This document shows positions 19,245 to 37,006 of a stretch of DNA of 64,000 bases, in pieces (positions within the stretch are counted from its first letter, which is position 1; the number at the start of each line of letters is the position of its first letter). This DNA is from Pelagibius sp. (GTDB taxonomy: Bacteria > Pseudomonadota > Alphaproteobacteria > Kiloniellales > Kiloniellaceae). The stretch is taken from the NCBI RefSeq assembly GCF_028281305.1, contig NZ_JANQKD010000003.1:88393-152392 (forward strand), in the 5' to 3' direction. The translations under genes were made by a program, and so were the position numbers. Below the pieces are notes generated by a model, which was not told the origin of the DNA, did not search any database, and saw nothing but the letters and a program-made list of their open reading frames with translations.

Positions 19245-20525
19245 CTAGAACTTGGTGCGCAGCCCGAGCGTCACGAGGTTGCGGGAGAAATCCCTGTCCT
19301 CGTCATCCGACCAGCGTTGCACATAGCGGTAGTCCGCCCCGATCGAGACGTAGCGGTTGATCAAGTACTCGCCGCCGACGGAAAAGATGGCGCGGTCGTC
19401 GACACGGTCCACCTCGCGAAAATCGTCCTGGACGTAACGCGCCTCGGCCACCAACAGAACATTGCGCATCAGCTCGTGCTGGACCTCGCCGGAAACCGTC
19501 GACTGGGTCTTTGACGAAGACCCGGGCGTGTTGGTCGCATTGTCCCGCCGCGCCAGGCGCCCCTTCACGGTTGTCAGCTCGGTGACGTACCAGGTGAAAT
19601 CCCCGTCGACGATGAAGTCGACATCGTCATTGAAGTCGGGGTCCTCGAAGTCATTGGCAATGAACCCCACATCCAGGGCGATATGCACGAGGCGGCTCAG
19701 CTCGGTTTCAATACCGATGGTGGCGCCGCCCGCCCGCGCGTCGCGGTCCGCGCCTGTTTCGTCCAGTTCATCGAACTCCCGGATGCGGAAAAAGGGCTCC
19801 AAAGTCACGTCAGTGATTTCGGAGATCTCATAGCCGATCGGCAGGCCGAAACGATACTCGATGCGGTCGCGGTCGTCATCGCCGGTGGAAACGTAGTCGT
19901 CCCGGCGCACCTGCACCTGCCCGCCCACGAAAACCCTGTTGAAACGGTGGGTATAGCCGCTATTCACCTGAAAACGGTCGAACTCCGTCGGGTCCTCTTC
20001 ACCGGTATCCTCCGGGTCGTCGCGGCCGATGACCTGCCGGCTGTACTCGGCGCTGAGATCAGCCTGGTTCCGCTCCGCCAGATCCAGCCGAAGCTGCGGA
20101 CGAACCAGGTATTCGGTGCGGTCCTGGCTCGAGTTGTCCAGGAAGGTCTGATCCCGGATCTGGCCGACAACGCGCAGGCTGTGGCGCGACCATTCGCTCC
20201 GGGCAACCAAGGATGCCGCGACCGAGGTGATGAAATCGTCTTCCTCGCCGCTTTCGTCGGCGAAGATATTGTCGTCATAGGTCTCGCTGACGCTGAGGCT
20301 TGGGAACAGGCGAAACCCACCCAGGTCGAGCCCTTTTGCATCAAAGGCCTCGCGCGGCCGTTCAAAGACGGCCACCGGCTCGCCACTTTCCTGCGCCGCC
20401 GCCGGAGCGGCCGCCAGGGAAACTGCCAGTCCTCCTGCCAGCCCCCCTGCCAGCACGGCACAGGCCATCCGCCGCACAGCGAGCAACCCCGGGGCCGAAG
20501 AGTCAGGGCGTGGCAAAGCGGTCAT
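19245..20525 (-). CDS. Outer membrane beta-barrel protein (EPS-locus type)
   Basis: Signal peptide; alternating amphipathic strands; C-terminal ...SRNLVTLGLRTKF ending in Phe as in OM barrels; downstream of the Wza-like gene. Confidence 0.82.
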   Translation of the reverse strand: MTALPRPDSSAPGLLAVRRMACAVLAGGLAGGLAVSLAAAPAAAQESGEPVAVFERPREAFDAKGLDLGGFRLFPSLSVSETYDDNIFADESGEEDDFITSVAASLVARSEWSRHSLRVVGQIRDQTFLDNSSQDRTEYLVRPQLRLDLAERNQADLSAEYSRQVIGRDDPEDTGEEDPTEFDRFQVNSGYTHRFNRVFVGGQVQVRRDDYVSTGDDDRDRIEYRFGLPIGYEISEITDVTLEPFFRIREFDELDETGADRDARAGGATIGIETELSRLVHIALDVGFIANDFEDPDFNDDVDFIVDGDFTWYVTELTTVKGRLARRDNATNTPGSSSKTQSTVSGEVQHELMRNVLLVAEARYVQDDFREVDRVDDRAIFSVGGEYLINRYVSIGADYRYVQRWSDDEDRDFSRNLVTLGLRTKF

Positions 20526-20573: not shown

Positions 20574-21146
20574 CTAGAAGTAGCGTTCGTAAACGTTGAT
20601 CACGTCGCCCGGCTGCACGAGCGCCAGCGGATCGGCCCTGAACTCCGCAAGCCCGCCATCAACTTCTCGGGTGATCGAAACGGTGTCCTGATCCGCCCGG
20701 AAGGTGAACCCTCCGCTGATCGAGACCGCGGTGAGCACCGTCATCCGCGGCACATAGGCGTATTGTCCCGGCGCTCTGGTCTCGCCCAGAATATAGAATG
20801 GCCGGTAGGTCGCAATCTCGACCGTTGTGTTCGGAGAGACCAGGATTCCCTGCGCGAGTTTCTCGGCAACGGCATCCTCGAGCTGCTGAACGCTCATGCC
20901 TTCCGCATCGACCGCCCCGATCAAGGGCACCGTCACGAACCCGGAATCGCTGACAAGGTATTCTCCGGTCAGTTCCTCCTGCCCGAAGACCACCAGGCGG
21001 ACCCGATCGCCGGCACCCAACTTGTATGGTCCTTCCGCCTTGGCCGGAAGCGGCGGCAGAGACCCTGCCCCGGTGCATCCGGCAACGAGAATCGAAAGCA
21101 TGGCCGCCGCCAGAGACCTGACGGCAAAGCTTCCCCCGACGTGCAT
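20574..21146 (-). CDS. Polysaccharide export lipoprotein (Wza/ExoF family)
   Basis: Lipobox-like LVAGC; PYKLGAGDRVRLVVFGQEELTGEYLVSDSGFVTVPLIGAVDAEGMSVQQLEDAVAEKLAQGILVSPNTTVEIATYRPFYILGETRAPGQYAYVPRMTVLTAVSISGGF. Confidence 0.93.
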   Translation of the reverse strand: MHVGGSFAVRSLAAAMLSILVAGCTGAGSLPPLPAKAEGPYKLGAGDRVRLVVFGQEELTGEYLVSDSGFVTVPLIGAVDAEGMSVQQLEDAVAEKLAQGILVSPNTTVEIATYRPFYILGETRAPGQYAYVPRMTVLTAVSISGGFTFRADQDTVSITREVDGGLAEFRADPLALVQPGDVINVYERYF

Positions 21147-21214: not shown

Positions 21215-21958
21215 TCAGTCGCCGGCCTCGGACAAGCGGCTGCCCGCCCAGACCTCCGCTGGTTGGCGCAGCCGATCGGCACGATTCTGTCCGGGTTCCG
21301 GTTCAATGCGCATGGCAACCACGCTCAGAGGCCAAGCCTCGGCGGTTGAGAGAACGGCTGCATGAAGGTCAGGAACGGCCTGACTCTCAAGCGCCTCGAA
21401 GACTTGCGGCTGCAGGATGTAGCGGCCCAAGGACGCCGCCGTGACCGCGGCGAAGCAGCCATCCCGCTCTCTCAGACCGTCATCCAGCACGGCAACCGCA
21501 TTCCCGCCTGCCTGCCGATAGCGTGCCGCCAGGCGCAGCATCGCCATGGCACCACCGGTCTGTGGCTGGGCCGGCACGAGCACGGCCACCGGCTCCTGGC
21601 CAACGACCTTGCGAGCGGCGAGCAGCGCGGTCGCAAGGCTGCGCTGGCCGCTCTGACGCCCGACCCTGATCTGGCGCGGCCGGGGCGCGTCGCTGCCCTC
21701 CGGGTCCGCTGCGGAAGGCCAACCCAAAACGTGGATGTGGCGTCCGCCGCGGCGGTCGTCCACGACGGTCACCCCATCTTCCGTCACCAGGACCAACTCG
21801 CTCAATCCGCAGGCACGCGCTTCTTCCACGACCGCACGCAGATCGCGGTCTTCTCCGGCAAAGGAAGGCGCCTGTCCCGGCACTCCGGCGATCGGCTGGA
21901 GCCCGAGAGGCCTCACACCCAGAGGGATAATGGCCTTGCGCAGAGGGGGAACCTTCAT
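21215..21958 (-). CDS. Degenerate GalU/ExoN-like nucleotidyltransferase homolog (probable pseudoenzyme)
   Basis: MKVPPLRKAIIPLGVRPLGLQPIAGVP...AVVEEARACGLSELVLVTEDG...RSLATALLAARKVVGQEPVAVLVPAQPQTGG...SLGRYILQPQVFEALE is collinear with GalU ([27 protein letters not shown] / VVNECIAAGITEIVLVT / [27 protein letters not shown] / IVGRYVLSADIWPLL), but the GLGTR loop, PKEMLP, PD and EKP motifs are missing. GalU residues recalled, not searched. Confidence 0.7.
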   Translation of the reverse strand: MKVPPLRKAIIPLGVRPLGLQPIAGVPGQAPSFAGEDRDLRAVVEEARACGLSELVLVTEDGVTVVDDRRGGRHIHVLGWPSAADPEGSDAPRPRQIRVGRQSGQRSLATALLAARKVVGQEPVAVLVPAQPQTGGAMAMLRLAARYRQAGGNAVAVLDDGLRERDGCFAAVTAASLGRYILQPQVFEALESQAVPDLHAAVLSTAEAWPLSVVAMRIEPEPGQNRADRLRQPAEVWAGSRLSEAGD

Positions 21959-21986
21959 GGTGTCCGGCAAGATGTCAGGCTCCCTT

Positions 21987-23444
21987 CTAATAGGCTTCGC
22001 GATCGCCGAGAACGACGAAGGCGGTTCTGATGAGGATCTGCAGGTCGAAGGCCAGCGACCAGTTCTCGATGTAGAAGAGATCGTGCTCGACCCGACGCTC
22101 AATCTTTTCGACCGTGTCGGTCTCCCCGCGCCAGCCGTTCACCTGGGCCCAGCCGGTGATGCCCGGTTTGACGCGGTGACGCGCGGCATAGGCATCGACC
22201 GCATCTTCATAAAGATGACCGCCGGCCTTGGCGGAGGTGGCATGGGGCCGCGGCCCAACCAGGGACATGTCGCCCTTCAGGACGTTAATGAGCTGCGGCA
22301 ATTCGTCGAGGCTGGTCTTGCGCAGAAAGCGGCCGACGCGCGTCACGCGCCCGTCATTGCGGCGCGTCAGGACCTCTGCATTGGCGTCGGTCATGTGGTG
22401 GTGCATGGTCCGGAACTTCCAGCAATCGAAGAGATTGTGATTGAAGCCGTAGCGCTTCTGCCGAAAGAAGACCGGCCCGGGCGAATCGAACTTGATCGCA
22501 AGAGCAACAAGCAGAAACAGGGGCGAGAGCAGAAACAGCAGCAGGGCCGCGATGCCGCGGTCCTCAATCGTTTTGAGGATGAAGGACCAGCCGGAGATTG
22601 GCCGGTCGAAGAGCTGCATCACGGGCAACCTGGCCAGCCGGGTAAAGGTGCGGTCGGGAAAGCTGAAGGCCGCAAGATCCGGTGCCAGCCTGACCGGAAC
22701 CGGTGTGCGCTCAAGCTGGCCAACGACCTCCCTCAGCCTCTGGTCGGCGGTCCAGGGCAACGCGACAACAACCTGATCCACCTCGTCCCGGCGGATCATC
22801 CCAATCAGGTCTCCCACCGTGCCCAGGAGCGGCACGCCATTGCTTTCCCGCAGCACCCGGGAACGCCGGTCATCCGCAAAACCGACAATCTTGGTGCTCA
22901 GATCGCCGTGGGTTTGGAGGTAGGCAGCCAATCGGCGCCCCTGTTCCCCGGCCCCGACGATAACCGTGCGATTGGCGAAGCGACCGGCCGCAGCTAGCCC
23001 GCGCACCCAGCGCCGCAGCAGCAGTCGGCCGGCAACCAGGCCCGCACAACTGCCCAAGAACCACGAAAGCGCCCAGATGCGTGAGTAGGTGTCAGACACC
23101 TTCATAAGAAAGGCCAGGGCCAGCAAGACGCAGAAGGTGACCGTCCAGGCGGTGACGATGTTTCCGTAAGGGATGCGCTTGGCGAAGAGAAAGTCGTCCC
23201 GGTACACGTCGAAACGGTGGAGCATCATCGTGGCGACCACCATGGCAACGACGATCGCGCCGAGGTACTTGGGGTAGTACAGACTTGGATCTTCTGCCTG
23301 CCGGAGGAAAAACACTGCCAGGCCCAGGAGGCCGATAATCATCAGATCGCAAACGCGAAAAACGATGTCGACGGCGATGCGCGAGATCGGCCTGACGTCC
23401 CGACTAGCCCGTTTTCCGTCCACTGCCGCCAGCGCAGCATCCAT
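21987..23444 (-). CDS. Exopolysaccharide polyprenyl glycosylphosphotransferase (WcaJ/ExoY-type)
   Basis: 485 aa; N-term TM plus Rossmann-like domain, C-term [32 protein letters not shown]...[27 protein letters not shown]...[24 protein letters not shown]. Confidence 0.96.
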
Positions 23445-23832: not shown

Positions 23833-24666
23833 ATGATGGCGCCGGATTTCATCATCATTGGTGCCATGAAGTGCGGTACCACCAGCCTGTACCGCTACCT
23901 CGGAGCACATCCGGATATCGGGCTTTCGCGTGAAAAGGAAACCGACTTCTTCCTGGCCAAGCAGAATTTTGCGCAGGGACTGGACTGGTATCGAGCGCAG
24001 TTCGCCAGCGGCGCCCGGATCAACGGCGAGGCCTCGCCCAACTACACCAAGCACACGGAGTTTCCGGGCGTGCCGGAGCGCATCTTCGACACGGCGCCGG
24101 GCGTGAGGCTGATTTACATCGTGCGCGATCCGGTCGACCGCTTTCTGTCCCAGTATCACCATCACGCCATTGCAGGCGAAGCGAACCCGGACCCCCGGCA
24201 TGTCCTGAGCACCAGGGCCGGACGCAATTACCTTGAGTGCAGCCGCTATTTCAAGCAACTCAGCCGTTACCTGGACTTTTTCCCGCGCGACCAGATCTTC
24301 GTGGCCAGTTTCGACGAGTTGCGTGAGCGCCCGCACAGCCTCGTGCGCCAGGTCTTCGATTTCCTTGAGGTCGACAGCGCGGTCGCGGTCGATGGACTCG
24401 ATCGGGCCCACAACCAACGCAGCAGTCTGCAGGGGCTGCCGCAGTGGTACTTCCGGGCCCGGCGATCCCCATTGCTGAAGGCCATAAAAGGACGCCTCCC
24501 CCAACCGCTCTACGAAGCTATGCTGAACCGGCTTCGGCGCGCGCCACAGGGTGAGTTGCCGCGAATCGACGAGGATTTGCGCGCCGAACTGAAGAATTTG
24601 CTAAAGGACGACGCCATGCGCTTCCGCGACTTCACCGGCATGCCGTTCGCGAACTGGTCGCTGTAG
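23833..24666 (+). CDS. Sulfotransferase domain-containing protein
   Basis: FIIIGAMKCGTTSLYRYLGAHPDIG (5'-PSB loop) and RLIYIVRDPVDRFLSQYHHH (3'-PB motif). Confidence 0.93.
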   Translation: MMAPDFIIIGAMKCGTTSLYRYLGAHPDIGLSREKETDFFLAKQNFAQGLDWYRAQFASGARINGEASPNYTKHTEFPGVPERIFDTAPGVRLIYIVRDPVDRFLSQYHHHAIAGEANPDPRHVLSTRAGRNYLECSRYFKQLSRYLDFFPRDQIFVASFDELRERPHSLVRQVFDFLEVDSAVAVDGLDRAHNQRSSLQGLPQWYFRARRSPLLKAIKGRLPQPLYEAMLNRLRRAPQGELPRIDEDLRAELKNLLKDDAMRFRDFTGMPFANWSL

Positions 24667-24673
24667 AGGCCCC

Positions 24674-26032
24674 ATGTCCGCCGAACCGCAACCACAGACC
24701 AGCCCGGCAAGCGGACCCATGCCAGAGCGCCAGGCGCCGCCGCAGGCTATGGACAGCGAGCCTCTGACCCTGATGCGGGCGCTGGAGTGGGCGTTCATGC
24801 TGTTCGCAATGCTGGCAGCGTCCTACGCATTTGCGCTGCAGCGCCCGGTCGAAACACTGAGCTGGTATCTCATCTACCTGACCGCCCTCGGCCTCTTCGT
24901 CCTGCGGTACGGGACCTTTCTCTCGGCGGTCTGGCTCGCCGGGCCGCTGTTGCTCTGGCCGGTCCTGGCCGCAACGTCCTACTTCTGGTCGGAGACGCCA
25001 AGTCAGACCCTGCGGGCAACCATTCAGCTCACGATGACGGTGCTGATCGCATCCTACATCGGCGGACGGTTCTCGATCTTTGACATCTGCCGCGGCCTGT
25101 TTTGGGTGACGCTCGCCTGCGGGCTGGTCTCGCTGCTGGCGATCCTCGCAAAGCTGGGAATTGCCTACGATCACAATGGAATCGCACGCGGTATCTTTCC
25201 GCACAAGAACGTGCTTGGCGGCCGCATGGTGCTCCTGCTGATCTGCTCGATTCTGCTGTTCGCCTTGGGCTGGAACCGGCCGCTTGTCCTGTTCGCCGCG
25301 GGGCTATGCCTGGTTCTGACCGCTCTCAGCCGTTCGGCAACCTCCATCGTCATGATGTTCGGCCTCTGCGCGCTTGCACCGGTGCTGCTGTCCTGGCGGT
25401 CGCCCGGCCCCATGCGCCTGCTGGCCTACCTCGTTGCAGCAATGGTGGCTGCGTCCGGCGCCTGGTTTGTGCTGTCCTACGGTATCGACCCCACCGGCCT
25501 GGCGCTGGACGCCCTGGGCAAGGAGCGCACCCTGACAGGCCGCTCCGTGCTGTGGGACTTCGCTACCGGACTGATCGCGCAGCGCCCTGTGCTGGGCGTT
25601 GGCTACAACGCCTTTTGGGACGGCAATGCCGGCTCGTTCAGCAGCTACATCCAGTATGTGATGCAGCAGAACCTGGTGAACTTCCACAACTCCTACCTGG
25701 ACATCACTGTTCAGATGGGCTTCGTGGGCCTCTCCGTGACCCTTGCGACCGGCGTCTGGTTTGGAATCGTCGCCTTGAAGGTGCTGCGCCACGGCGGCGA
25801 TGCGACGGCTGCCCTGCCTGCCTTCTTCCTTGCCTTCGTCGCGGTCTACTCGCTCAGTGAATACGCACTGTTCCGCCAGCATTCACTGATACAGATCCTG
25901 CTCGGGGCAATTCTGGTCGCCAGCATCCGGCAGGCAGCGGAGCTTTCCGAAGCTAGGCTGGAGTCGACCCTAACCGCCCTTGGCAGAGGCGCCGCCAGAT
26001 CTCCGCAATCAACTGGCTGGAGACATAGCTGA
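24674..26032 (+). CDS. O-antigen ligase/polymerase family membrane protein (WaaL/Wzy/ExoQ-like)
   Basis: 452 aa polytopic; GIFPHKNVLGGRMVLLLICSILLF, LTALSRSATSIVMMFG, GRSVLWDFATGLIAQRPVLGVGYNAFW...NFHNSYLDITVQMGFVGL. Confidence 0.92.
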   Translation: MSAEPQPQTSPASGPMPERQAPPQAMDSEPLTLMRALEWAFMLFAMLAASYAFALQRPVETLSWYLIYLTALGLFVLRYGTFLSAVWLAGPLLLWPVLAATSYFWSETPSQTLRATIQLTMTVLIASYIGGRFSIFDICRGLFWVTLACGLVSLLAILAKLGIAYDHNGIARGIFPHKNVLGGRMVLLLICSILLFALGWNRPLVLFAAGLCLVLTALSRSATSIVMMFGLCALAPVLLSWRSPGPMRLLAYLVAAMVAASGAWFVLSYGIDPTGLALDALGKERTLTGRSVLWDFATGLIAQRPVLGVGYNAFWDGNAGSFSSYIQYVMQQNLVNFHNSYLDITVQMGFVGLSVTLATGVWFGIVALKVLRHGGDATAALPAFFLAFVAVYSLSEYALFRQHSLIQILLGAILVASIRQAAELSEARLESTLTALGRGAARSPQSTGWRHS

Positions 26033-26951: not shown

Positions 26952-27266
26952 TGACGTTTCTGACAACTGGTCTGCGGGCCTTTGTCGTAAGTGAGCGAAC
27001 GACAGGGTCGTTGCGCGGCAGAGTAGCCTTCCTCGGAGCCGTCCTGGCTGGAACAACTTTGTGGCATGCTTGCCTTCGTCATTCCGACCATACTATTGGG
27101 AAACAAGGGTAAAGTGGATCGCACCCCAACGTCCGTTCCTGGCCTCTTCATCTAGGTGTCGGCCAGGGTTCGGATGCGGCGGAAGTCCCGGAAAGAGGCA
27201 CCGCCGCCGGCCCTGGAGGGAATGCGCCGACACTTGGCTTTAGATGACACTGGGAAGCGCTGCACC

Positions 27267-28640
27267 ATGTCCGAGACGCCGAAGTCCCTGATCGTTCTGG
27301 AGTTCAACGAACTCTGCCCGCCAATTCTGAACCGCCTGATGGGCAAGGGTGTGCTGCCGAACTTCCGGCGCCTGCACGACCGTTCGGAGGTATTCGTTTC
27401 CACCACCAACGACGAGAGCCTGGAGCCCTGGGTTCAGTGGGTGAGCTATCACACCGGCCAGCCGCAGACGGTGCACGGAATCACCGAGCTCGACCAGGGG
27501 CATTGCATCACGCTGCACCAGCTCTGGGACCGCTTCGCCGAAGAGGGCAAGAGCGCTCTTGTCTTCGGCTCCATGAATGTGAGCCCGTCGAAAAGCGACC
27601 GGGTCACTGTGGTGCCCGATCCCTGGTCGCGGCAGGTGCCGCCCTCCGATGACGCCTTCCAGGTGTTCCATCGTTTCGTGGCCCACAAGGTGACCGAGCA
27701 CGCGAACCCGGATGCCGATGGCGGGGCGCGTGACGCACTGGCCTTCGGGAAGTTCCTGCTCGGCCATGGGCTCAGCCTCGGAACCGCTGGGCGCGCCGCC
27801 TCACAACTGCTGGCCGAGCGTTTCGGCAAGCGCGACCGGCGCTGGCATCGCGCGACGATCCTCGATCAGCTCTCCTGGGACGTCTTCAAGCACAGCTACC
27901 GCAAGCGCCGCCCCGACGTCGCCTTCTTCTTCGCCAACTCCGTGGCCTTCTACCAGCACCGCTATTGGCGGCACATGGCCGCCGAGGAGTACAGCGCGAA
28001 ACCCAGCGGCGCGGAACTCGCGTCCTACGGCGACGCGATCGAGACCGGCTACCGCGGCCTCGATCTGCTGGTCGGAGACGCCCTGCGGCTGGTGGGCAAC
28101 GATGGCGCCGTCGTCCTCGTGACCGCGTTGAGCCAGGAGGCGAACCTGAAGTACGAGGACATCGGCGGCAAGTTCGTGCACCGCCCGCGCGACTTCCGCA
28201 AGCTGTTGGATTGGCTGGACGCCCCGGCGAGCGCCACGGTGGAGCCGGTGATGACGCATCAGGCCTGGGCAAGCTTCGAAGACGAAGCGGGGGCCCGCCG
28301 CTTCGAAACCGCTCTTGGGCAGGTGACAGCCGCCGGCGAGCCGGTCTTCGCCTGGCGCCGCGACGGCGCGCGGGTGATGTTCTGGTGCAACTTCATACAG
28401 CCGCTCGATGAAGCTGCTCAGATGCACCGCGGCAACGGTGCGAAGGTGCCCTTCTCCGCCTTCTTCGCACCGGTCGGCTACGTCAACAACAGCCAGCACC
28501 ACCGGGACGGCGCGTTCTGGGTCATGAGCCCGGGCAGGCCGCATCGCGTGGCAACCGGCAAACTGCCGCTGGAAACGGCGGCGGAGATGACGATGAACAT
28601 CCTGCCCGGGCGACGGCAGCCGCTCCGCAAGGTAGCCTGA
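27267..28640 (+). CDS. Alkaline phosphatase/type I phosphodiesterase superfamily-like protein, atypical metal sites
   Basis: KSLIVLEFNELCPPILNRLMGKGVLPNFRRLHDRS...LEPWVQWVSYHTGQPQTVHGI...DVAFFFANSVAFYQHRYWRHM...QHHRDGAFWVMSPGRPHRVATGKLPLETAAEMTMNILPG: order of elements resembles PF01663-like proteins. Confidence 0.55.
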   Translation: MSETPKSLIVLEFNELCPPILNRLMGKGVLPNFRRLHDRSEVFVSTTNDESLEPWVQWVSYHTGQPQTVHGITELDQGHCITLHQLWDRFAEEGKSALVFGSMNVSPSKSDRVTVVPDPWSRQVPPSDDAFQVFHRFVAHKVTEHANPDADGGARDALAFGKFLLGHGLSLGTAGRAASQLLAERFGKRDRRWHRATILDQLSWDVFKHSYRKRRPDVAFFFANSVAFYQHRYWRHMAAEEYSAKPSGAELASYGDAIETGYRGLDLLVGDALRLVGNDGAVVLVTALSQEANLKYEDIGGKFVHRPRDFRKLLDWLDAPASATVEPVMTHQAWASFEDEAGARRFETALGQVTAAGEPVFAWRRDGARVMFWCNFIQPLDEAAQMHRGNGAKVPFSAFFAPVGYVNNSQHHRDGAFWVMSPGRPHRVATGKLPLETAAEMTMNILPGRRQPLRKVA

Positions 28641-30588: not shown

Positions 30589-31760
30589 AGAGCGCCGCTC
30601 CTGCCCGCATCGCTTTGTGCCCCGGGCTGCACGTCAGGTTGCGCGCCCGCCAGAAAGCGGTTCTCCTTCGCCGCTGACATCGCCTGACCTGCCATCTGGC
30701 GGGCGGTGACAAAGGCGTTCAGCGTCATGATCAGGCTCTCAATCTGTTTCTGCGGGTCGATCTCGGGCCGCTTCCCGTAGCTCCAGGCAGCCTCCGAGGC
30801 TGCTTTATAGACCGGGGAATCGGCCCAGAATTCCCGGACCGCATCCGCCCAGACTTCGGCGGGCGCATCGTGCGGGAGGACCCGGCCGGCCGGGCCGATC
30901 GCTTCCGGCAGCCCGCCCCGATTGCTGCCAATGGCCGGGATACCGCTGAACTGCGCCTCGGTCACCACGCGCCCCCAGGCCTCCTCCCATTGGCTCGGCA
31001 CCAAAAGGCAGCGGGTGGCGCCATAGACGCTGCGCATGTCGTGGGTCCGCGGCTGCAGGCGAATATTCGGATGGGTCGCGACCCGCGCCTCGAGGGCGTT
31101 CTTCTCCTGCGCGTTCATCGGCCAGCCTTCCACGAAGCAGAAGGGGATCTCCGGGCACAGCCTGGCGACTTCAAAGGCCAGGTCGGCCCCTTTGACGGGA
31201 TGCGGATTGATGAAGGTGACCTGCCTCGGTTCGACTTCGGTCCGGTAGCGGGCGGCGCGAAACAGCGGCCGGATCACCGTCGCCTTGGGCCCGTAGACCG
31301 TCTCGAAACGATCCGCCACAAACTGCGAATTCGCAATATAGCCGAGTGACGGCAGCGCAGCCGGGTCCCCGCCCAGTTCATGGAACTCGACATCGCGCAG
31401 ATAAACGACCGTGGGGACACCTGCCCGCACAAAGCCCTGGGCCATGCGCAGGGACTCGCCGGACTGGACCAGCACCACATCGGGGCACCAGCGATCAAGC
31501 AGGCGGTCCACCTGTGCGGCCGGCATCCAGGCACGAAACACCCGATATCCCGGCGTGGCGTCCGCCAGCAAAGGCCGGCGGGTCAGCTTCATCACAACCC
31601 GATTGCGGAACGCCAGCCAGCCGTTTCCTTGAAGCTGCGCCAGCACTTCGCTGTGGTGGCCCGCCTCGCGCAACGCCAGGATCAGCTCATGGCTGCTGGA
31701 CTCCGACCCGCCGACGCGTTGGGGCAGATATCCATGGCCGGTCGCGAAGAGGATCTTCAT
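30585..31760 (-). CDS. Glycosyltransferase family 4
   Basis: MKILFATGHGYLPQRVGGSESSSHELILALREAGHHSEVLAQL...LLVPSQWEEAWGRVVTEAQFSGIPAIGSNRGGLPEAIGPAGRVL. Confidence 0.93.
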   Translation of the reverse strand: MKILFATGHGYLPQRVGGSESSSHELILALREAGHHSEVLAQLQGNGWLAFRNRVVMKLTRRPLLADATPGYRVFRAWMPAAQVDRLLDRWCPDVVLVQSGESLRMAQGFVRAGVPTVVYLRDVEFHELGGDPAALPSLGYIANSQFVADRFETVYGPKATVIRPLFRAARYRTEVEPRQVTFINPHPVKGADLAFEVARLCPEIPFCFVEGWPMNAQEKNALEARVATHPNIRLQPRTHDMRSVYGATRCLLVPSQWEEAWGRVVTEAQFSGIPAIGSNRGGLPEAIGPAGRVLPHDAPAEVWADAVREFWADSPVYKAASEAAWSYGKRPEIDPQKQIESLIMTLNAFVTARQMAGQAMSAAKENRFLAGAQPDVQPGAQSDAGRSGAL

Positions 31761-31913
31761 GCTCCAGCCTCCCGGGTGCGGGCAGGAAGCAGAGCATCCG
31801 ATTTCTTGTGTCCTTGCCACAATCTGTCCAAAATTCCGCCGCAGTGTGGAGTGGCAGAAGGCTGCAGGGCAGCCCGCCGGTTCGGGCGCGCCGCGCCTGG
31901 TTCACCGGGAATC

Positions 31914-31943
31914 GATCCACAGGGGGTCGATCCACAGGGGGTC
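31914..31943. repeat. 2 x 15-bp perfect tandem repeat (gatccacagggggtc), plus a partial third
   Basis: Read directly: gatccacagggggtc gatccacagggggtc gatcgattgggg, upstream of the cyclase. Confidence 0.9.
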
Positions 31944-31981
31944 GATCGATTGGGGAAAGCAAAGATCTGCGAGGGAAGAGC

Positions 31982-33415
31982 ATGAGCCTGACGTCGAGCG
32001 TTACCTCGATGGTATGGGATGAAACGACGCAGGCGCGGGTCCGCCATGCGCTGCGCGGCGAGGAGGATGCGGGGCTGGTCTTCGCCCTGGGCGCACGTAC
32101 GCTGGCGCTGATCGTGGTCGGCGCCTGGCTCATCATCGAAGTGCCGATGCCGCGGGCCAGCTACTACCTGGGCATCATCGGCCTGTTTCTGCTCCTGGGT
32201 GCTGCACACTATGTTACTCGCACGCGCACGGAACATCCGACCGCCTGGACCGCACTCTTCATCGCGTTGGACTCGGCACTTCTGGCCGTCGCTCTGATCT
32301 TTCCAAATCCGCTCTCCGACGCCCCCTGGCCGATCCAGGGCAACCTGAAAATCCACAATGACCTCTATCTCTACATCTGGCTGGCACTGGCAGCGATCAG
32401 CTACTCGCCGATCCTGGTGATCTGGACCGGCATCACGACGATGGTCGCCTGGAGCCTGGCGGTCTGGTGGGTGATTTCGCTGCCCAGCACGATCACCGAG
32501 ACCAACCAGCACCTTGCAACCGCCGCCGATCCGCTTTGGGTCGATCAGAACTTCGGCCTGATCTTCGACCCCTTTTTCGTCAGCATCACCGGATGGGCAA
32601 ACCAGGTGGTGCTTTTCCTGATTGCCACCGGGCTGGTGGCGGCAGCCGTCTGGCGATCGCGCAAACTGCTGATCCGCCAGGCCCGCGCCGAGCGGGCGCG
32701 CGGCAACCTGGCACGCTTCTTCTCGCCCAATGTCGTCGAGCAGCTGGCTGACAGCGACGATGCGCTGGCCGAGGTGCGAACCCAGGAGGTTGCGGTCCTC
32801 TTCATCGATCTCGTCGGCTTTACGCGCTTTGCAGAGACCTTGGAGCCCGTGGCGGTCATCGAGTTGCTGCGCACTTTTCACCAGAGAACCGCGAAGGTCA
32901 TCTTCGAACACGGGGGCACCATCGACAAGTACCTGGGCGACGGCATCATGGCGACCTTCGGAACCCCGACCCCCGGCGCCAAGGACGCGCTCGCCGCCCT
33001 GCACTGCGCCTGCGCCCTGCGCGATACTCTCGATGCCTGGAACCGGGAACGGGAAGCAGCCGGAGAACCGGCCCTGCGGGCCGGTATGGGCCTCCACTTC
33101 GGGCCGGTGGTTGTCGGCGCGGTCGGCGATTCCCGCTGCCTGGAGTTCACGGTCATCGGTGACTCGGTGAATGTGGCCAGCCGGCTGGAGCGGCTGACGC
33201 GGCAGAGGAACCGGTCCATCATTGTTAGCGGAGCGGCAATTGAAATGGCCGAGGCGCAGGCGGAAAGCGACACCGAAAGAGCCCTCGTAAACCGCTTCGA
33301 CCGCATCGAAGACGCCGAGTTGCGTGGCCGCAGCGCCCGCATGCCCATCTGGTCGCCACGCGCTGCCGGAGAAGCGGCCTTGCCCGCGACAGCACCAACG
33401 ACCACGACGGACTGA
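31982..33415 (+). CDS. Membrane-anchored class III adenylate/guanylate cyclase
   Basis: N-terminal TM helices; RFFSPNVVEQLADSDDALAEVRTQEVAVLFIDLVGFTRFAETLEPVAVIELLRTFHQRTAKVIFEHGGTIDKYLGDGIMATFG...CLEFTVIGDSVNVASRLERLT: both metal Asp, Lys and Arg present. Start at 31982 with gaggga RBS. Confidence 0.94.
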   Translation: MSLTSSVTSMVWDETTQARVRHALRGEEDAGLVFALGARTLALIVVGAWLIIEVPMPRASYYLGIIGLFLLLGAAHYVTRTRTEHPTAWTALFIALDSALLAVALIFPNPLSDAPWPIQGNLKIHNDLYLYIWLALAAISYSPILVIWTGITTMVAWSLAVWWVISLPSTITETNQHLATAADPLWVDQNFGLIFDPFFVSITGWANQVVLFLIATGLVAAAVWRSRKLLIRQARAERARGNLARFFSPNVVEQLADSDDALAEVRTQEVAVLFIDLVGFTRFAETLEPVAVIELLRTFHQRTAKVIFEHGGTIDKYLGDGIMATFGTPTPGAKDALAALHCACALRDTLDAWNREREAAGEPALRAGMGLHFGPVVVGAVGDSRCLEFTVIGDSVNVASRLERLTRQRNRSIIVSGAAIEMAEAQAESDTERALVNRFDRIEDAELRGRSARMPIWSPRAAGEAALPATAPTTTTD

Positions 33416-34515: not shown

Positions 34516-36765
34516 CTAGTAGTACTTGCGGAAGCTGCGGTCGGCATAGCCGACTGTATAGGGATTGAGCTTCGCGCTGCGCGAGAGCTGCGCCTGGGTC
34601 ATGACGGTCCCGGCGACATGGGCTTTGCACTTGCGCAGCCGCTCCAGCGCCGCCTGGACGAACTGCTTCGGCGTCCGGCTCCACCGCACCACCATGACCA
34701 CCTGATCGGCAAGCTCCGCCAGGGTTGCGGCATCCGAAACCGCCAGCGTCGGCGGCGCGTCGATACAGACGAGGTCGTACTGCTCGCCTGCGGCCCGCAC
34801 GAAGCGCGTCAGCTTCGGGGAGCGCAGCACCATCAGCGGATCCACCGTCTGGGTACCGGGCGGAATGACGGACAGCGTGGAGCCTTCGTCGATCTCGATT
34901 GCCTGTTCAAGCGGGCAGTCTGTAAGGACGAAGTCCGAAAGGCCCAACCGGGGTTCCTGCTCGGAAGCCCGGAGATCGGCGTCGATCAGCAGCACGTTCA
35001 TTCCGGCCCGCGCAAGCGACGCGGTGAGCGTGCGCGAAAAGACCGACTTGCCTTCGTTCGGCACCGAGGATGTTACCAGCAGAACGTTGCCGAGATTGAG
35101 GACACGGCGGTCGACCCGCAAGGCGGCATAGACGCTCTTATGGGCCTCAGCGAAAGCCGAGTTGGGCTCGGCGTTCAAGAAACGGTCCAACCCCTTGCCA
35201 GCCAAACTGCGCCCGCGAATCCTCGGTATGACCGCCAAAACCGGCAAACCCAGCGCCGTCTGAACTTCCTCCGCATCACGGTAGCCGCGTACGGAAAGCT
35301 CAAGCAGCAGAATGATGAGGGCGCCCAACCCACAGCCGAGGACCACGGCAAGAGCGTAGTTCAGGCGCGTCCGGGGAAAGGACGGGCTGGTCGGGATGCT
35401 GGCGAGCGCCAGAACCCGCGACTGCGCCTGATCATAGTCGATCTGCTCGGTTTCCTTGTAGCGGTTCAGGAAAGATTCGAAGACCTCGCGTGTCGCCTCG
35501 GCTTCCCGCTGCAGCGCCCGCAGTTCGATCTGCGCCGAGTTCAAGGTATCCGAGTCGCCCTGCAGCCTGCGCAGCGAGGCCTGGATGGAGCCCACGCGCT
35601 GTTGGGCGAGGTCCTTCTCGTTCCGCAGACTCGATACCAGGCTCCGCGCCTCCTCGACCATCTGTTGGCGCCGCTTGTCGAGCTGGGACCGCACGGCAAT
35701 CACGGAGGGGTGTTTCTCACCCAGGGTGGTGAGCAGCTCGGACTCCTCCTGGCGCAGCCGCATCTCCTCCAGCCGCAGCGAGTTGATGACCGTCGATTCC
35801 ACCCCCTCGAAAGCTGCCATCTGGCCGCGGCTGGCCACAGCCAGGCGTACGCGGTCCAGGCGCTCGTTCACCGTGTCGAGCTCAAGCTGTGCATCCAGTT
35901 CCTGGCGGCTGAGGGAAAAGATCTGCTCGGCCATCAACTCGCCGTCGCGTTCCGAGATGATCGGCGTTGTGGCGCGGAACTCTTCGACGGCGTTCTCGGC
36001 CTTCTGAACATCGGCGCGGAGCGCTGCGATGCGCCCGCTGAGAAAGGTGTTCGCACCCGCCAGGGCATCGGTCTTCAAACGCACCTGGTCACGAATGTAC
36101 TCCTCCGCGACGGCATTGGCGATCTGCTGCGAGAGGGCCGGGTCGCCGGTGGTGTAGGAAATGGAGATCACACGCGAAGAGCCCTGAATCGCAAGGTTGA
36201 GCCTGCCGAGAAAGCGGTTGACGATGCGTGTTTGTCCCCAGTCCTGCTGAACCTGCTCGGTGTTGAGGTCCCAGGTACCCGGCGCCTCGGCAAGCTCCAC
36301 CGCCCGGGGCTGTGCAGGCTCCTCCTTCAACCAAGCGATGATCGGTCGGAAGACCCCTTTGATCCCGGATTTCACCTCGTCGACGACACTGCGCTCCCTG
36401 GGCAGGAGCGCCGGGTTGAACTCCGTCAGAGCGGCCAACCCCAGGCCATCGATCACCTGACGCGCCAAGGTCGGCGACTGGATGATCTGCACCTCGCTCT
36501 GCATCGTCTCCAGACTGACCGGGAGACTGGACATCACCGACTCGATCTCGATCACGTTTTGCTGGCGCGGCTCGACGATCACCGATGCAGTGGCGGTGTA
36601 ACGCGGCGTGATCACCCCGTTGGCGATTACGGCGATGCAGAGCGCAATAAAGAGCGTCGCCCCGATGATCCACTTGCGGCGCCAGAACACACCGATGAGC
36701 TGGGGGATCGTCAGACTCATAAAATCCCCCTGGGTACGGCTCAACTGATGTCGAAGGGTGGTCAT
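34516..36765 (-). CDS. Polysaccharide biosynthesis tyrosine autokinase (Wzc/ExoP family)
   Basis: Wzz domain (IPQLIGVFWRRKWIIGATLF); Walker A VTSSVPNEGKSVFSR, A' VLLIDADLR, B YDLVCIDAPP; C-terminal Tyr-rich tail NPYTVGYADRSFRKYY. Confidence 0.95.
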   Translation of the reverse strand: MTTLRHQLSRTQGDFMSLTIPQLIGVFWRRKWIIGATLFIALCIAVIANGVITPRYTATASVIVEPRQQNVIEIESVMSSLPVSLETMQSEVQIIQSPTLARQVIDGLGLAALTEFNPALLPRERSVVDEVKSGIKGVFRPIIAWLKEEPAQPRAVELAEAPGTWDLNTEQVQQDWGQTRIVNRFLGRLNLAIQGSSRVISISYTTGDPALSQQIANAVAEEYIRDQVRLKTDALAGANTFLSGRIAALRADVQKAENAVEEFRATTPIISERDGELMAEQIFSLSRQELDAQLELDTVNERLDRVRLAVASRGQMAAFEGVESTVINSLRLEEMRLRQEESELLTTLGEKHPSVIAVRSQLDKRRQQMVEEARSLVSSLRNEKDLAQQRVGSIQASLRRLQGDSDTLNSAQIELRALQREAEATREVFESFLNRYKETEQIDYDQAQSRVLALASIPTSPSFPRTRLNYALAVVLGCGLGALIILLLELSVRGYRDAEEVQTALGLPVLAVIPRIRGRSLAGKGLDRFLNAEPNSAFAEAHKSVYAALRVDRRVLNLGNVLLVTSSVPNEGKSVFSRTLTASLARAGMNVLLIDADLRASEQEPRLGLSDFVLTDCPLEQAIEIDEGSTLSVIPPGTQTVDPLMVLRSPKLTRFVRAAGEQYDLVCIDAPPTLAVSDAATLAELADQVVMVVRWSRTPKQFVQAALERLRKCKAHVAGTVMTQAQLSRSAKLNPYTVGYADRSFRKYY

Positions 36766-37006
36766 GGCTTCCCCTTGCCCCGGGTTCTGCATACTGCGTA
36801 CCTACCTCGGCCCCATGGCCCGATGCCCCTCGGCGGCGCTGGACGGAAATCGAATTCGCTGGCGCCGCCCAACGCTGTTGCGACCGCGGCGAACAGCAAT
36901 TCCGGAAAGCTTATCAGAGGGCTGTCGGGGTTTTCTCGGCCCCTGGTCAATGTCCGACAAAAGACACAGTGAACTCTTCCGGCCGCCATTGAGAGCGGAA
37001 AGATCG

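Follow-up and report, generated by a model that had tools for sequence, protein, structure and literature searches.

What does a protein that resembles UTP-glucose-1-phosphate uridylyltransferase (GalU), and carries none of its recognizable catalytic elements, do in an EPS gene cluster? The gene in question, termed psGalU here as a catalytically disabled GalU paralog, is located at 21215-21970 on the minus strand of the window, the 64,000-nucleotide stretch of a Pelagibius sp. contig that was analyzed. A sequence-only reading had described its product as a GalU-derived probable pseudoenzyme in an EPS operon, and this description is now backed by four lines of evidence that agree: fold and profile homology, the simultaneous loss of catalytic residues, conservation across the genus and purifying selection. 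Judged from these comparisons, a GalU copy in an EPS cluster has most likely lost its chemistry and been kept throughout a genus because it assists polysaccharide assembly without acting as an enzyme.

The psGalU gene and its neighborhood

The open reading frame and the motifs quoted in the sequence-only reading were both present, and the gene call stood except for its start. The ATG at 21958 that had been taken as the start codon is ATA in an ortholog of 92% identity, while a TTG located 12 nt upstream, itself preceded by GGGAG, is common to both genes, and the start was therefore moved to this TTG at 21970, giving a protein of 251 aa. Most of the genomes compared were draft or metagenome assemblies. 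Sequencing or assembly error was ruled out by identical losses in seven independent genomes, and chance similarity or a wrong frame by the profile matches and the orthologs.

psGalU belongs to a four-gene unit on the minus strand. Upstream is a WcaJ-type polyprenyl-phosphate glycosylphosphotransferase (PGT, 21987-23444) with the Pfam domains Bac_transf and CoA_binding_3, whose stop codon lies 16 nt from the psGalU start in the window. Downstream are a Wza-like polysaccharide export protein (20574-21146; Poly_export and SLBB) at a distance of 68 nt and an outer-membrane beta-barrel protein (19245-20525; BBP2_2), the last gene of the conserved unit. These domain assignments agree with the earlier placement of the gene between a WcaJ-type PGT and a Wza-like exporter. 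The expectation that an ExoN-type enzyme would be encoded here was not borne out, as outside the genus no GalU occurs at this position in homologous Wza loci (none at the 15 outgroup loci inspected). The same EPS cluster includes a Wzz/Wzc-like chain-length determinant with a P-loop domain (34516-36792, minus strand), a Wzy_C/O-antigen ligase-like polymerase (24674-26032, plus strand) and glycosyltransferase genes.

Other genes of interest in the cluster included 27156-28640 on the plus strand, encoding a product of 494 aa that is shared by EPS clusters of the genus at 69-96% identity, had no Pfam match at 1e-3 and by eye resembles the alkaline-phosphatase/phosphodiesterase superfamily. A plus-strand sulfotransferase gene (23833-24666) is located divergently beside the PGT in genomes G000, G005, G001 and G006, with none detected at that place in G002, G004 and G007, and EPS sulfation may therefore vary within the genus. 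The plus-strand gene 31346-33415, located among glycosyltransferase genes and conserved in G002 (66%), encodes a membrane protein that by eye resembles a class III adenylate/guanylate cyclase. In a related genus of the same family, an EPS-like contig (locus L180, G011:C314, 1160-2050 and 12251-12598) features the only GalU detected in that genome, which is intact and located approximately 10 kb downstream of, and not adjacent to, a PGT fragment that shares 72% identity with the window PGT. Two proteins that by eye resemble the product of 27156-28640 adjoin this intact galU. This genome has a completeness of 87% and a contamination of 8%, and its arrangement may reflect the ancestral one that gave rise to psGalU.

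Homology to GalU and predicted fold

psGalU matched the galU profile TIGR01099 at an E-value of 3.8e-8 and 33.2 bits, without reaching the curated equivalog cut-off of 326.8 bits, and the GalF profile TIGR01105 at 12 bits, again without reaching the curated cut-off (659.2 bits). A Pfam search with psGalU gave no match. The best match in the PDB was 2ux8, the GalU of Sphingomonas elodea (E 3.5e-11), and a profile built from the seven psGalU orthologs found the same structure at E 9.7e-41. The homology to GalU thus exceeds chance, and psGalU is collinear with GalU, as had been read from the letters.

An AlphaFold monomer model of psGalU had a mean pLDDT of 62 and a pTM of 0.69, with a confident core and low confidence at residues 18-39 (the old active-site loop), 86-107, 164-177 and the C-terminus. 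The model had been suggested earlier as a means of comparison with GalU, and in Foldseek its top matches were exclusively GalU structures (E 1.4e-9 for the best, TM approximately 0.5), a likeness that is partly built in because the input alignment consisted mostly of GalU. With low-confidence loops and this GalU-biased alignment, the model predicts that psGalU keeps the nucleotidyltransferase (Rossmann-like) core fold.

Loss of the active site

Residue loss was scored against 69 GalUs, among which 85 alignment columns were at least 95% invariant. The GalU encoded elsewhere in the same genome keeps all 85 of these positions, E. coli GalU keeps 76 and E. coli GalF 65, while the psGalUs keep 30 to 44. 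G17, G19, T20, K27, K31, D137, E201 and K202 (E. coli numbering) were lost in all seven psGalUs and R21 in all but one. In the window protein the changes are G17 to V, R21 to G, K31 to Q, E32 to A, G114 to S and D137 to A, with E201 and K202 deleted, so that the GLGTR loop, the PKEM lysine, the Mg-binding D137 and E201-K202-P are all missing. The EKP hairpin was deleted together with its segment of about 25-35 residues, in keeping with the EKP motif having been called absent, and most of the GAGGEIQLTD segment was deleted or replaced. The replacement of catalytic motifs noted from the single sequence is therefore a loss common to the seven orthologs, in columns that are near-invariant across the 69 GalUs, none of which exhibited the same residue loss. 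None of the residues that form the metal, triphosphate and sugar-phosphate sites is kept across all seven orthologs, and no conserved cluster of Asp, Glu, Lys or His has taken their place in the old active-site loop (conservation 0.20).

Alanine mutants of Klebsiella GalU indicate what such changes cost: the activity left was 0.56% for G17A, 0.45% for K31A, 1.4% for E32A, 0.19% for D137A, 0.67% for E201A and 6% for K202A, and single alanine mutants at R21 and G114 retained 4.6% and 1.5% (PMC11796359). Since residues critical in the Klebsiella enzyme have all been lost at once, we infer that the window psGalU is catalytically dead. The intact galU that the sequence-only reading proposed to look for was found: a single GalU in the genome exceeds the TIGR01099 cut-off (C89:27293-28078, 339 bits), followed by UDP-glucose dehydrogenase and phosphoglucomutase in a galU-ugd-pgm operon whose context is conserved across the genus.

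Distribution and origin

Orthologs with the same motif loss beside the PGT were found in related genomes, psGalU being present in seven of the eight genomes of the genus (G000, G001, G002, G004, G005, G006 and G007). The order PGT-psGalU-Wza-barrel is fixed in all seven, with 16-84 nt between the PGT and psGalU and a 1-nt overlap in G007. In the eighth genome, G003, there was no match to PGT, Wza or psGalU and the GalU is kept. This GalU is the sister of the G007 GalU (support 100/99), nested inside the genus, and G003 has therefore most simply lost the locus. A search of 61 genomes of the order separated psGalUs, at 250 bits or more, from ordinary GalUs, at 156 bits or less. No member was found beyond the genus in these 61 genomes or in samples of 385 genomes of the class and 398 of the phylum, plasmids yielded ordinary GalU only, and a search of the literature on alphaproteobacterial GalF-like proteins returned nothing relevant. 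On this distribution psGalU is judged to be a GalU pseudoenzyme confined to the genus and linked to a single EPS locus.

The psGalUs form one clade (support 100/100) with the same topology as a tree of PGT, Wza, barrel and GalU, which argues for vertical descent. The AU test rejected a clade uniting psGalU with E. coli GalF (p-AU 0.0011) and was compatible with one uniting it with the genus's own GalU (p-AU 0.476). Duplication from that GalU is a candidate origin, which the long psGalU stem leaves neither favored nor disfavored. Derivation from a GalU is evident from the homology, and an alphaproteobacterial GalU is the best explanation for the source of the protein. Among ordinary GalUs, an order-level sequence (L034 in G029) has intact motifs although its branch (1.49) is among the longest in the GalU tree.

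Selection and rate of evolution

psGalU has evolved rapidly: its summed branch lengths exceed those of the PGT about 5-fold and those of GalU about 12-fold. Relative to its closest relative, in G005, dN/dS was 0.22 (neighboring genes, 0.05-0.21), third positions accounting for 32 of the 51 differences, and it was 0.16 for the G001-G006 pair and 0.35 for the G004-G007 pair. All seven frames are open across a divergence at which synonymous sites are saturated, while in a neutral simulation 0.7 substitutions per site left about 2% of frames or fewer open in each lineage.

Conservation was lowest at residues 21-40, the old active-site loop (0.20), and highest at 41-60 (0.58) and 181-200 (0.60). 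Derived residues invariant in all seven proteins include R168, G170, A174, E210 and W212, in the REGxFAAI and AEAW region, and the overall pattern fits selection for something other than catalysis. The C-terminal helices are lost or unrecognizable in four of the seven psGalUs, including that of the window, after separate erosion in two lineages, and this end is poorly conserved. The G001 and G006 proteins keep these helices, E32 and 44 of the 85 GalU-invariant positions, with about 30 kept in the others. A plain pseudogene was ruled out by the dN/dS values, the open frames and the conserved derived residues. Taken together, the comparative data show psGalU as a gene kept by purifying selection, inherited vertically in a fixed PGT-psGalU-Wza-barrel unit and missing where the unit is missing.

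Proposed role of psGalU

That psGalU is catalytically dead and selected for an accessory role is highly probable. The preferred reading in full, a GalU-derived, non-enzymatic accessory protein of this particular EPS pathway, is a probable one, held with less assurance. psGalU would be translated together with the PGT, stay in the cytoplasm and act by touching another protein with the remaining parts of its fold, among which the first strand, the VEEA..GL.ELVFVT helix-strand and the new REGxFAAI...GRYILQP...AEAWP region are the candidates for contact. The likeliest contact would be the cytosolic part of the PGT, the starter of repeat-unit synthesis, where psGalU may tune or dock the UDP-sugar-dependent first step; GalU would be the second candidate. 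The PGT is placed before GalU because it is the immediate upstream gene and in most genomes the most closely spaced, because psGalU vanishes with the locus instead of staying with GalU, and because the helices of the GalU dimer are lost in four of the seven proteins. The PGT as direct partner is nevertheless a tentative assignment, as conserved gene order alone is no proof of an interaction between the two. A further reading, in which psGalU is the first of a new class of pseudoenzyme subunits that serve the initiating PGT of an EPS assembly line (or its export partner), is doubtful, if conceivable. Such a subunit would have been recruited from GalU independently of enterobacterial GalF, shed its entire ligand site and come to work by contact only.

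The main rival is a GalF-like regulator, in which non-catalytic psGalU would bind intact GalU and adjust the supply of UDP-glucose to EPS synthesis. There is precedent in E. coli GalF, a protein of a polysaccharide locus whose activity has been lost and for which an interaction with GalU was reported (Marolda & Valvano 1996, as cited in PMC11796359), and, in the same superfamily, in non-catalytic GMPPA, which regulates GMPPB (PMC11228364); an intact GalU is moreover present in every psGalU-bearing genome. Yet the tight dimer of GalU is made by the two C-terminal helices (PMC4643126) that four of the psGalUs, the window's included, no longer recognizably have, which speaks against use of the canonical GalU interface, and G003 dispenses with psGalU and the EPS locus while its GalU remains. 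Nor is any nucleotide or sugar site left with which UDP-glucose could be sensed. This regulator is considered unlikely.

The rapid evolution and parallel C-terminal erosion could also reflect a weak or fading function, and at the extreme psGalU would be a relict, a redundant EPS-associated duplicate of GalU on its way out that has been retained by short time or by polar effects on the downstream wza. An intact GalU elsewhere and a dN/dS of 0.22, above that of PGT, Wza and barrel (0.05-0.08), would suit such a relict, which is improbable because all seven frames have stayed open although synonymous sites are saturated, every measurable close pair has a dN/dS well below 1, and derived residues such as the five named above are invariant throughout. 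Very improbable, and the least likely of these readings, is an enzyme or nucleotide-sugar binder with another substrate or chemistry in the old pocket: the predicted Rossmann-like core and conserved new residues that, by alignment, would lie beside the former sugar pocket are compatible with it, but the site residues for metal, triphosphate and sugar-phosphate are gone in the whole family and the old loop holds no alternative conserved cluster of acidic or basic residues.

As an accessory protein, psGalU would be a second GalU pseudoenzyme besides GalF, independent and far more eroded, and again in a surface-polysaccharide cluster. Such a recurrence suggests that a GalU fold without catalysis has repeatedly proved useful in EPS/CPS pathways. 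Erosion among the seven proteins is graded, and the series can be used to locate the surface still under selection and hence the partner served. They are also a warning, as annotation by weak GalU similarity would miscall proteins of this type as enzymes.

Comparison with known systems

ExoN, a rhizobial GalU homolog encoded with EPS genes, is regarded as an active uridylyltransferase. An enzyme of this type requires an intact catalytic site, and by residue content psGalU would not be one. Ordinary GalU (TIGR01099) is collinear with psGalU and shares its predicted core fold, with 2ux8 the closest solved relative, but psGalU is without the catalytic and most of the substrate residues and scores 33 bits against a cut-off of 327. 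GMPPA likewise belongs to the sugar nucleotidyltransferase superfamily, is non-catalytic and has an active paralog, GMPPB. It differs in being eukaryotic and distant in sequence and in that it can bind GDP-mannose and interacts with GMPPB (PMC11228364), whereas psGalU has no recognizable ligand site.

The closest likeness is to GalF of E. coli and Klebsiella (TIGR01105, NF007516), a protein that PMC11796359 describes as restricted to enterobacteria and as still disputed in its role. Like psGalU, GalF is a GalU paralog encoded in a surface-polysaccharide cluster, with the GLGTR motif lost, an intact galU elsewhere and a proposed regulatory role. Unlike psGalU, it keeps D137, K31, E201, K202 and the EKP hairpin, and with them 65 of the 85 invariant positions compared with 30 to 44, and it has measurable residual activity (0.004-0.06%). 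The two arose separately, as the rejected joint clade indicates, and in different lineages, with the deeper erosion in psGalU. By its anatomy psGalU would therefore appear to work like GalF without being a GalF, and we regard it as an analog of independent origin.
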